A stretch of DNA of 64,000 nt from Synaphobranchus kaupii (lineage: Eukaryota > Chordata > Actinopteri > Anguilliformes > Synaphobranchidae), in the NCBI GenBank assembly GCA_029718625.1, contig CM056383.1:19507930-19571929 (forward strand), in the 5' to 3' direction. Made by a program: the position numbers and the translations under genes. Under the pieces are notes generated by a model, which was not told the origin of the DNA, made no database searches, and saw only the letters and a program-made list of their open reading frames with translations. Position 1 is the first letter of the stretch. Each line of letters opens with the position of its first letter. Shown here in pieces: positions 4,901 to 22,900 of this stretch.

Positions 4901-7900
4901 ACAAAGCAACAATGAGTTACAGAGATACCAAAGCATATTGGAAAGAAACTTTCCGAGCTTCCTCAGACACACGATAACTGGTGTAAACAGTTACGCCTTT
5001 GTTTTTTATTCAGAATAATGCGCTGCCCATATTTTTCAAATATTCATTCTGGGTAGCCAGCTAATGTGCAACAATTCCTTTTGGGTGCCATGTTTTATTT
5101 ACAGCATGAGACAAATTCAGGAAAATAAGATGAATTAGAGAGAGGATGCAGTGTTAGTTCAGCTGGAAATAGTAAATGGAGGGCTCTCTCACTTCTGGGA
5201 ACTTGGGGTGTGTCTTGTTGATGGCATGAGAGCTAGCGTTAACCGCGTGAGCCAGTTCCTGCTCGAGGATGCTGTGGACCTTGGCCGCTTCGCAAATCCT
5301 GTAGACAGAAACAGGTCAGAAACGGAGGTCAGGAGTCAGAGGTCAGATCACAGGGCTCTACGCACTGCCATCTTTTACCACAATGGCCAATGTCAATGTC
5401 CAGAACCTCTGCCCATTCGCAATACCTTCTTTTGTTGACAAAAGTCAACTTTGAAAATGTCAGCTTTGAGGCCCAAATATATCATTGTCTGTTCTCTGCT
5501 ACCCTGGATCATTTCTTGTGTATGCACTGCAATTGCTTTGATATGTGGCTGTAACTAGATCTAATTCAGTCATTCAACTAGGCTGAAATCTGAATATGCA
5601 GTCAAACCCCATAGGGATATTATTGCCTGTCCCAAATAAATCTGGGGTTGCAGGGTCACCTGGTGATGAGCTCCTCCGCGGCACGGGCGCACATCTGGAC
5701 GAGAGCTGCCTCCTCCTCGGTTGCCAGGTCAACAGACTGCTGGGGGTACAGGTGTGGCCGCAGTGGGGGCTTGTCGTACTTCAGCTTGTCCTCCCAGGAC
5801 TTAAGTGTGTTCTCAAATGCCTGAGCAAACAGACAGACAGGACTTAAGTGTGTTCTCAAAGACCTGCGCAAACAGACAGACAGGATTTAAGTGTGTTCTC
5901 AAATGCCTGAGCAAACAGACAGACAGGACTTAAGTGTGTTCTCAAATTCCTGAGCAAACAGACAGACAGGACTTAAGTGTGTTCTCAAATGCCTGAGCAA
6001 ACAGACAAACAGGACTTAAGTGTGTTCTCAAAGACCTGCGCAAACAGACAAACAGGATTTAAGTGTGTTCTCAAATGCCTGAGCAAACAGACAAACAGGA
6101 CTTAAGTGTGTTCTCAAAGACCTGCGCAAACAGACAGACAGGACTTAAGTGTGTTCTCAAATGCCTGAGCAAACAGACAAACAGGACTTAAGTGTGTTCT
6201 CAAATGCCTGAGCAAACAGACAAACAGGACTTAAGTGTGTTCTCAAATGCCTGAGCAAACAGACAGACAGGACTTAAGTGTGTTCTCAAAGACCTGCGCA
6301 AACAGACAGACAGGATTTAAGTGTGTTCTCAAATGCCTGAGCAAACAGACAGACAGGACTTAAGTGTGTTCTCAAATTCCTGAGCAAACAGACAGACAGG
6401 ACTTAAGTGTGTTCTCAAATGCCTGAGCAAACAGACAAACAGGACTTAAGTGTGTTCTCAAAGACCTGCGCAAACAGACAAACAGGATTTAAGTGTGTTC
6501 TCAAATGCCTGAGCAAACAGACAAACAGGACTTAAGTGTGTTCTCAAAGACCTGCGCAAACAGACAGACAGGACTTAAGTGTGTTCTCAAATGCCTGAGC
6601 AAACAGACAAACAGGACTTAAGTGTGTTCTCAAATGCCTGAGCAAACAGACAAACAGGACTTAAGTGTGTTCTCAAATGCCTGAGCAAACAGACAAACAG
6701 GACTTAAGTGTGTTCTCAAAGACCTGCGCAAACAGACAGACAGGATTTAAGTGTGTTCTCAAATGCCTGAGCAAACAGACAGACAGGACTTAAGGGGTTC
6801 TCAAAGGCTTGAACAAAAAGAGGGGGAGGCAACACACACACACACACACACACAACCAGACTTTCTCTCCCACACAATTACACTAACAGGTTTAATAAAA
6901 CCACCCAGACATCCACACAAACACAAACACTATCTTTCTCTCTCACCCTGTCCCGAGTCAGCATCTGTGCCCTGTTCTTATGCTGAATCTTAATGACCCC
7001 GGGGGGCTGGACCCAGGCCTCTCCATCCACCTGGATAGGGACCCCCTCCTCCCCCAGGATGGTGATCCTCACAGAGCGACACTGAAGGGGGACAGAGGGG
7101 CGACGTTAAAACACTGTCCCGGGCTGTGGAACAGGAAGAAGGGTCAAACTACAGGTCTGTATGGGTATGAAATTGAAGCCTAAATCCGGCCTGTACCCAA
7201 GACCTTGAGACCCGACCGGACCATTACTGGCAGTGTAGTATAATGGGTAAGGACCTGGGCTTGTAACCGAAAGGTTTCAGGTTCGATTTCCAAGTAGGAC
7301 ACTGCCGTTGTACCCTTGAGCAAGGTACTTCACCTGTATTGCTTCAGTATATACTGTATATCCAGCTGTATAAATGGATACTATGTAAAAAATGCTTTAA
7401 AATGTTGTGTACGTCACTCTGGATAAGAGCGTCTGCTAAATGCCTGTAATGTAATGAAATCGGTCACAGAAGCGGTTTTACAATGCAACTACCCTCTTGC
7501 GTAATAGCTATAATTATCATACTAAGTCATACTATAATATATTTCCTATGCACTGTAAAAAAATGTCCATTGATTTTATAGTGAAAAGTCTGTAAAATAA
7601 CAAAGGTACAAAATTGTCAACAGCTGAAATGTAAATAACATACAATACATCCGTAATATAATTAGATATACAGCCTGGTACAGTATGCGCAACATAATGT
7701 TGTTACATAATTTATACACTTTTAAATGTTACAGTACTATACTGGCACCTGGGGTTTCCAGAACTTTTCTCTATAAATAACGGTAGCAATATGTTAAGCA
7801 AACCGTAGCAGGCTGTAGCCTATATCTAATTATAGTATGGTGTTTCACCATAAACAATACAATTACTTACATTTCATACCATCGCTATTTGACAGACCTT

Positions 7901-13496: not shown

Positions 13497-13533
<37 letters not shown>

Positions 13534-13947
13534 ATACCAGGACAAATAATGCGCGTGTTGAGCACAGGCAGGTTCTCCTTGCTGGTGCTGAAGGGGATGG
13601 AGAAGGAGCCGCAGGATTGGCTGCTGCGACTCATACGGTTCTCAGGAGGGGAGCACGGCGTCTGCACAGCTGGAAAAACAGACACACCGTCAGCTCTATC
13701 CCAGAATCCTTCGCTGCCACCCAACCAATCCCTTTTTCCCACTCTAATAGAGTTACTTAAACCTAGCCCTGACTGCTAATCAGGTAACATGAAATTGAAG
13801 ATTTCAACTGAAATGTCAAATCATAATTTCTTTCATGTTCTTTCACTGTTGTATAAGTTCTCTGAATTTGCAGTAGGTGGCAGTAGTGAGTCATCCAATG
13901 TTTTCCTTTCTTGTGTTACAAGAACACATACCATAACACAATGGCAG

Positions 13948-19900: not shown

Positions 19901-22900
19901 CCCTCAGGGTTGTGCAGTCCTCTGTATGAAGCACAAAGTTAAGCCCCAGCAGTACCCAAATGTGCCCTGAGGAGAGTCAACTCCAGCACCATTCCTGTCT
20001 TTCTGATAGTTTCTTCTGTATTCATCCTTGCTCTGTCCTCCTACTATACACAATGTCACCCCTACAGCAGTGCTATCTCTTTCCTTCTCTCCTTTATCAG
20101 TCATGTAAGTTACTCCGTCTCTTCTATCAGTCCTCTCCTACTCCCTTCCGGTATCAGTCCTCTCTCATCCTCATCTTACCCGCCTTAGTTCACTCCCCTC
20201 CCTCTCTAGCAAAGTGTACGTATTATACACTTATATAAATCTTTCCAAATATTGTTATTCCAAACAATATTTTTTTCCATTCCAGCCACCTCCGTCAATG
20301 CAGAAAGATGCATTTACAGCAGGCATTGTCAAACAATGATAGAGGATACGGACCATAATTAAATTCAGTCACAAAGTTTAAACCTTACGTTTTAATTTAA
20401 TTTCAGTTAATTGGTTTTAATCTATTTAATTTTAATTAGCCTACCCCTGCTACAAATCATTTCATTATTACAAATAGCCTTCTATTTATAATGTTTTGTG
20501 CAAGTAATATAACTGCTATGTGTATAAGCTGCTTCCCATAGACTAAAAACAGCAGCATAGCACCAAAAACACTAAAAATATGTCACTGACACATGTCTGT
20601 TGAATGCAGTGTGCAAACGTGTGGGCACATTGCTGTTAATCATTGGTAAGTGGCAATTGACTTTTCATATCGATTACTTGGGGAGGTGTAGTGCCTAATT
20701 TGAACAGGTTGGATCAAAGAAAGCTCTACTGAGCAACGACTGAAATGCAGGTAAGAAATTTGCCTTGGAAAAAAAAACTTCTGACCCCAGCTATAGGAAT
20801 ATTATAGATATTGTTGATTCTTTAAAAAAAATGCTTACTGTTTTTGAATAGGGACTACTGCACCTCCTCTGTGTTTTCCTGTCTGTTTATAATAGTATTT
20901 AGAATAGAAGTGTAGTATTGCTGATTTACCCACAGCTTACTGTGAACTACAGTCAACGTTCATTACTAGGGATAGCTGCTACATTATGGGAAGGATGTGC
21001 TTTGTCTTGTCTGTTCTGTAGTGATCTTGATGATGTCTCTGTATGCACTTATTGTACGTCGCTTTGGATAAAAGTGTCTGCTAAATGAATGTAATGTAAT
21101 ATCAGAACCTGATTGTTGTTGGAGTAACGTGCTCGTGTGAGGTACCGAAATGGCACAAGTTTTGTCAGCAGCACAATTGGAAAGGTCATGTGACAAGATT
21201 GCTGTCAACACCTACTTATCTAGCAATCTTTGGCAAAGCCTCAGTATTTTCTCACATAATTCAGTCTGAAAAAGTCACTGGTTTTAGGAATAAACTGTTA
21301 TTCTTCAGTTCTTTGCACACTATGCACAGCCGTTACTTATTGTTTTGTCAGTAATGTCAAATACGCTTGCTGATGTTTGATGCATCTGCGCAGGACTTTT
21401 TTTGCTTTTCAATGATCAAACGGTCAAGAGTATGCCTTTGGCCCCCAGGCCACTGGTTGGATAGCCCTGATTTATGAGTTCATTCAAAAGCAGTCCATGA
21501 TGGATCCAAATTATATGACGTGCATAAGCACTTTACGGCAGGATGAAATACTGCTTTCATTTTAGATGTGTGTGTTATAGGAAGGGTCACCAGTGTTTCT
21601 AAATCATGTGACTCACAGGAATTTAAGCTTGTATTACAATTGATATCCTCATGGGGTCCCTACAGGCTCAAGGGAGAAACATCTGTCAGTAGGGGCGCAA
21701 GAGCTTTGACTAGCACGTAGATGTCATCCATGATTTCGCCGATGCATTTTTGAGTGCATTTGAGTGCATTTCTCAATAAGAGTGTACGCCAGTGGCCCTG
21801 TTCCTGGAGATCTACTGTCCTGCAGGTTGTCATTTCAAGTGTAATTTGGCACACCTGATTATACTAATTAGCAGCTCAACAAGAACTCTTGCTGTTGAAT
21901 GAGGTGTGCTTCGTTAGGGTTGGAGTGAAAACCTACAGGACGGTAGATCTCCAGGAACAGGGACCACTGGTTTATGAAATTGTAGGGCAATCCCCTCTGC
22001 AAAGCAGCTTAAGCAGAATTATGTGCTCAATGCTGCTGATACACATGAAGAAAATAAGGAACTGCTCTAGACTACTGACAGAACATCTGTGGTCACAGAA
22101 GAGGTGACTTTGATTGATGGCACAGACAATTTTACGGTTTCCATTTTATTTATAATTTTTTAAAATTTGTTTGTTGGCAAACTCACAAGAGTTGTTAAAA
22201 AGGTTTTTAAGCGGAAAGTTACGCTACACAATGCTTCTAAGGAGTGCAGTAACAGAGCAAGTTTCCGACCTACCAATAAAACATCCACCCCATCTGAGCC
22301 ATGCAAATCAAGATGGGGCAGTTGTTATTGTGTGCTGCCGTACCATTCCCAGTACTTCAATTTCTAGTGTAGATTTTCTGACCCGGAGAAGGACTTATCA
22401 CACTAAATAGTGCTGTGCTGGCACAGCTCAAATAGTTATTGTGTATACTTTTAGGGGCATAGCTTTCGTTAATCACGGACCGTAACAAAAGCCTTGTTGA
22501 AATGATCCACTGGTCTGAGAGTAGAGAATTCAGAATACATGAAACATACAATAAGATTGATGACTGAATACCAAACATATACCAATATATACCATATACC
22601 AAAATGCTGGCTCACAGCAGTCAAAACAAGAAATAGACAATGCGTCAAAACATTCAGAGACGTCGCAGAGAAACTGACATGTTACCACCCCAGTGCACTG
22701 CAAAAGAGACCGTGTTTCTTTCAACCAGTGCACAGATTCCTCGAGGCTGTTAGGGGTTTTGAACCCAAGCCAGCCCACACACTCGACTTGACCAAACTCC
22801 CACTGGACTTGATTCCAGGATTTGACAACTGTTCTTCCAAACTCATCAATTACAAATTATTTGCGCGAGAAAACAGCACTGCGATGTCGCTGATGGATTT

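Follow-up and report, generated by a model that had tools for sequence, protein, structure and literature searches.

The 64,000-nucleotide stretch of the Synaphobranchus kaupii genome analyzed here (the window; assembly GCA_029718625.1, contig CM056383.1, positions 19,507,930 to 19,571,929) carries on its minus strand the fish gene for diacylglycerol kinase (DGK) eta, dgkh, in which a 43-bp minisatellite lies across the boundary of intron 23 and exon 24 and repeats the exon 24 acceptor. A 717-residue piece joined from the exons matches proteins named at source as fish DGK eta over the whole query, at up to 86% identity among the best 120 of 2116 matches. In a 23-taxon tree, comprising the window and 22 relatives hand-picked among these 120 matches, the bonefish Albula is recovered as sister of the window, with a support of 1.00. 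A tblastn search with the Denticeps protein as query gives 29 exon matches, the first at about 63 kb and the last at 1.8 kb. Among seven exon frames compared with Pfam, DAGK_cat, DGKD_4H and SAM are above the cut-off in one frame each, DAGK_acc is slightly under it, and two frames are without a relevant domain. Two N-terminal matches, at 46255-46145 and 34712-34563, cover the same 24 residues of the query; an alternative exon, a duplicate or an over-extended alignment could explain this. Because of the overlap, the exon numbers used here are nominal.

The proteins of the relatives align at 7084-6938 and 5823-5659, which correspond to matches 23 and 24 of the 29. With refined ends, exon 23 occupies 6947..7081 and finishes between codons with the peptide QMLTRDR, exon 24 occupies 5660..5820 and finishes with EELITR, and intron 23 between them (5821..6946, likewise on the minus strand) measures 1126 nt, most of which is the array; intron 24 measures 361 nt. 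The comparison with relatives is one of proteins. In all 120 listed relatives the exon 23-24 join is plain, without insertion, and the junction peptide reads TRDR-AFE[N/S]TLKSWEDK, with AFEN in 118 and AFES in 2.

Tandem Repeats Finder (TRF) places the minisatellite at 5795..6821 with a period of 43 and 23.9 copies. On the gene strand it contains 23 copies of TGTYTGTCTGTTTGCKCAG/G (the slash marks the boundary), and all 22 intervals between them, from 6766 to 5820, are exactly 43 nt, which bears out the first-pass annotation of an acceptor multiplied 23 times at 43-nt spacing. The innermost copy, with its pyrimidine tract and CAG at 5821..5839, is the actual start of exon 24; together with the plain join in the relatives, this confirms that the units align to the exon 24 junction, as had been claimed. 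Upstream of it lie 22 further complete acceptor copies (5840..6785), whose exon-like starts begin at 6766 and recur every 43 nt to 5863. The outermost copy, TTCAAG/CC (6783..6830), is decayed and lies at about 6808, 42 nt from its neighbour, and the CAG/G acceptor is present in 23 of the 24 copies. The unit spans the boundary and is a composite of intron and exon, as first annotated, but its division into 19 and 24 nt is corrected here to 17 nt of intron and 26 nt of exon, as identity with exon 24 extends through CCTG.

Five of the 43 columns vary among the 23 units, none of them within the AG. The inner units are homogenized and the outermost unit is divergent; because the copies are homogenized, the low column variation says nothing on constraint. 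In a lag comparison of the units, the lag of ten units shows one mismatch in 559 positions, versus 12 to 63 mismatches (totals of 387 to 946 positions) at the 13 other lags tested. This points to a recent duplication of a 430-bp, ten-unit block inside the array, whose two copies occupy 6785-6356 and 6355-5926, and the duplication is in turn an indirect sign that the array may vary in length between alleles or cells. Allowing at most three mismatches, the window contains 21 occurrences of a 39-nt piece of the unit, versus a mean of 0 in 100 shuffles, and a DNA search of the species' own genome, which skips very common words, matched the dgkh locus alone. As for RNA structure, five stretches of one and two units fold no better than shuffles (z -0.57 to 1.34).

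The acceptor at 5820 is the only one of the 23 that keeps the reading frame, and it yields the exon 24 start found in the 120 listed relatives. If exon 24 starts at one of the complete copies farther upstream, the frame stays open for 16 codons before a stop, in all 22 cases; this early stop from 22 of the 23 acceptors was absent from the first-pass annotation. The decayed edge copy, in the frame from its AG (CCT TTG AGA ACC CCT TAA), also leads to an early stop. Use of the nearest upstream copy would produce an exon of 204 nt with the stop about 150 nt before the exon end. Since a stop at that distance is expected by rule to cause nonsense-mediated decay, decay of this mRNA is expected.

Acceptor strength was assessed with a matrix built on the 19 other acceptors of dgkh, with real sites scored leave-one-out. 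Every unit has a pyrimidine tract and an AG, as observed earlier. The array acceptors score 8.8 to 12.4 (n = 23); the range for the 19 real dgkh acceptors is 1.1 to 14.9, and for 1080 other AGs in the region the median is -4.3 and the 99th percentile 9.2. Copies with CAG/GTC outscore the productive type, a gap that is unreliable in a 19-site matrix. The productive copy is not distinguished by its local acceptor sequence, and from this we infer that what decides between the acceptors must be their position or the exon sequence downstream. The branch-site-like word ACTTAAG pointed out in the first annotation is present (its A 23 nt upstream) and moderate, scoring 3.5 on an ad hoc 0-5 scale; it is surpassed by TTTGAG (A 35 nt upstream) at 4.0, and the top-scoring words near the 19 other acceptors range from 3.0 to 5.0.

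The genome looks very rich in minisatellites. The 94 contigs of the assembly total 1.503 Gb, 72 Mb of it in the contig that holds the window, and 19 hand-placed 10-kb stretches (186 kb excluding N) were sampled from the assembly. They contain 21 arrays with a period of at least 20 and at least 5 copies, which cover 17.6 kb (about 9.5%) and occupy 11 of the 19 stretches, three arrays longer than 2 kb making up about half of the 17.6 kb. Sampled arrays include 62-bp x 40, 37-bp x 89 and 42-bp x 65. Within the window, a 204-bp x 3 array (1092-1704, 95% matches) sits in the intron past the last exon match, off any splice junction, and a (TG)n tract (13499-13531) starts at about the seventh intron base after the exon ending at 13538. 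Two 3' tails of UnaL2 long interspersed nuclear elements lie on the plus strand at 7396-7449 and 21040-21094, one of them inside dgkh intron 22; together with the position next to Albula in the tree, these tails make an elopomorph fish likely.

Searching the genome with the exon 24 peptide returns four further loci, taken as DGK paralogues, with identities of 94, 56, 56 and 46%. The closest is a second dgkh copy on contig C9 (L023), where an 80-bp x 3 array (L023:1248-1485 = L027:6708-6945) stops in the pyrimidine tract, 15 nt before the exon 24 acceptor, and the AG is not copied. In another paralogue, L025 (contig C8, about 3.71 Mb), the exon 23 donor lies in a perfect 3 x 52-bp array, CACCAGAGACCGG/GTCAGT... 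(L025:2075-2230). This second junction-spanning array affects the donor side of the intron corresponding to that of the dgkh acceptor array, so that, of five DGK loci examined, two carry a junction array in the same intron, one acceptor-side and one donor-side. L024 and L026 have no array at the examined exon ends. A TRF array with a period of at least 10 lies within 12 nt of 2 of the 110 exon ends surveyed in the window and L023-L027; this total counts the 8 L023 ends a second time in L027 and includes gene-end, split and overlapping matches. Minisatellite growth in this genome therefore seems to yield junction-spanning arrays repeatedly, as a by-product rather than as a singular device.

Taken together, we propose that the dgkh array is probably a tolerated "mirage", as minisatellite duplications across intron-exon boundaries are called in amphioxus (PMC3087553). 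In this reading most splicing would go to the exon-proximal acceptor, and nonsense-mediated decay would clear the errors. The array would have arisen, through slippage or unequal exchange in a minisatellite-rich genome, as a tandem expansion over the intron 23/exon 24 boundary that is neutral or mildly harmful. The spliceosome would mostly pick the acceptor adjoining the real exon, giving normal DGK eta mRNA, and splicing to a complete copy upstream, whichever of the 22 is taken, would add a multiple of 43 nt. Because this addition brings a stop within 51 nt, such mRNAs should be targets of nonsense-mediated decay and would be removed. The array and its spacing, the one frame-keeping acceptor, the relatives' join, the block duplication with its homogenized inner units and divergent edge unit, as in the amphioxus mirages, the richness of the genome in minisatellites and the L025 array argue for this reading, as do two published measurements. 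Specifically, results of reverse transcription polymerase chain reaction (RT-PCR) suggest that amphioxus genes with mirages are still spliced regularly (PMC3087553), and for human ABCA7 the retention of one donor-bearing unit, which shifts the frame, amounts to 2 ± 1% in tissue samples (PMC5954066).

Several points weigh against this proposal. The use of acceptor 5820 in cells, like the decay step and neutrality, is deduced from sequence, and this acceptor, at 8.8, scores lowest among the 23. Additionally, intron 23 measures 1126 nt to the productive acceptor and 180 nt to the first complete copy, and human competing 3' splice sites show an upstream preference that is strong when the intron is short and significantly weaker when it is long (PMC9225289), so that the unproductive site would be favoured. 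Published rules of acceptor choice pull both ways, and the closest measured cases, the amphioxus mirages and ABCA7, favour the exon-proximal site.

The same upstream preference (PMC9225289) would suit a length-set rheostat, in which the 22 upstream acceptors compete for a sizeable, copy-number-dependent share of the transcripts that then goes to decay, and the array tunes DGK eta output. All 23 acceptors score the same as or above the productive one, all 22 upstream acceptors lead to an early stop, and ABCA7 expression is lower with a longer junction repeat (PMC5954066), each of which fits such tuning. We nevertheless regard it as unlikely, because no constraint signal can be separated from homogenization in the array and regular splicing is undisturbed in the published mirages (PMC3087553). 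The proximity rule, by favouring unproductive acceptors (PMC9225289), would likewise agree with an array that has largely disabled this dgkh copy and left the job to the close second copy on C9, 94% identical in exon 24; the joined exons from the 13th match onward, however, give 720 residues without a stop, as expected under continuing selection, and make this very improbable.

The two 430-bp blocks with their single difference in 559 positions could also signal that part of the copy number stems from an error of assembly, and a draft amphioxus mirage was indeed mis-assembled. Yet the long contigs of this assembly and a 3162-base locus (L022) that runs over the array without N speak for the sequence as assembled, and an error could alter the number of units but hardly create the array, which renders this explanation highly doubtful. 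Finally, the motif CAG/GTCTTT in 7 of the 23 copies might serve as acceptor and donor at once, either for recursive splicing or as a nascent intron. Its donor score of 2.3, though the best of the 96 array GTs, is under all 20 modelled real donors (2.4 to 11.9) in what is a weak test with a small matrix, and we give this reading almost no credence. Recursive splicing or intron gain by a duplicated AG/GT proto-splice site was rejected as a candidate, the copies offering, by the same small matrix, no usable donor and weak GTs only.

The dgkh array provides a natural experiment on how a vertebrate chooses among equal 3' splice sites, with 23 near-identical acceptors of which only the last is productive. 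The question it poses is whether the first acceptor along the intron or the acceptor nearest the exon prevails. It also adds a minisatellite-rich fish genome to the known range of mirage repeats, one where a paralogue carries a donor-side array and the frequency with which arrays strike splice junctions becomes countable. There is a small chance that its significance goes further: the array would then form a natural series of 3' splice sites, equal and poisoned, whose length varies and whose copy number sets the share of dgkh pre-mRNA reaching the productive acceptor, and mirages at gene boundaries would be a recurrent source of such dials in this fish lineage.

A search of the open-licence literature, with most subscription papers lying outside it, returned no report of the dgkh array or of a 23-fold acceptor array. 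Introns arising from tandem arrays are reportedly the subject of Zhuo et al. 2007 and Rogers 1989, which by title and citation concern new introns; splice signals are multiplied likewise in dgkh, where a new intron is not evident. An amphioxus mirage in Adh3 was reportedly described by Canestro et al. in 2002, as cited by others, with units of 10-72 bp. The first-pass annotation knew of no described gene with the dgkh arrangement, a claim that the amphioxus mirages contradict: in BflGb6 the intron end and the exon start, i.e., the 3' boundary, are multiplied, and BflGb9 is also a mirage (PMC3087553). Further amphioxus cases are PGBD5 and, as cited there, troponin C (PMC3902484). In these mirages inner units are homogenized, edges are divergent and haplotypes differ in length (PMC3087553). 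The dgkh array resembles them in that its unit holds intron, exon and splice signals and is homogenized inside with a divergent edge. It differs in its host, a fish rather than a lancelet, in being known from sequence alone, and in its 23 complete acceptors at exact 43-nt spacing, whereas BflGb6 has 6 and 3 units of 150-160 bp.

Closer in host is trout irak3, where the first 15-17 nt of exon 5 are repeated four times directly upstream in intron 4 (PMC6763605); exon-start repeats lie immediately upstream in both fish genes, with 4 repeats there and 23 complete acceptors in dgkh. Human ABCA7 carries in intron 18 a variable number tandem repeat of 25 bp that starts at the donor and has 23.7 copies in the reference (PMC5954066). 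Like the dgkh array, it is a short repeat that multiplies a splice site and shifts the frame upon use of a further copy. It multiplies the donor, whereas dgkh multiplies the acceptor, and alleles, RNA effects and disease association have been measured for it; within the window the repeated site is the acceptor, and the donor is the site repeated three times in L025. Boundary-spanning minisatellites were thus known already, and what is remarkable in dgkh is the copy number, the exact spacing, and the presence of one frame-keeping acceptor against 22 dead-end ones.
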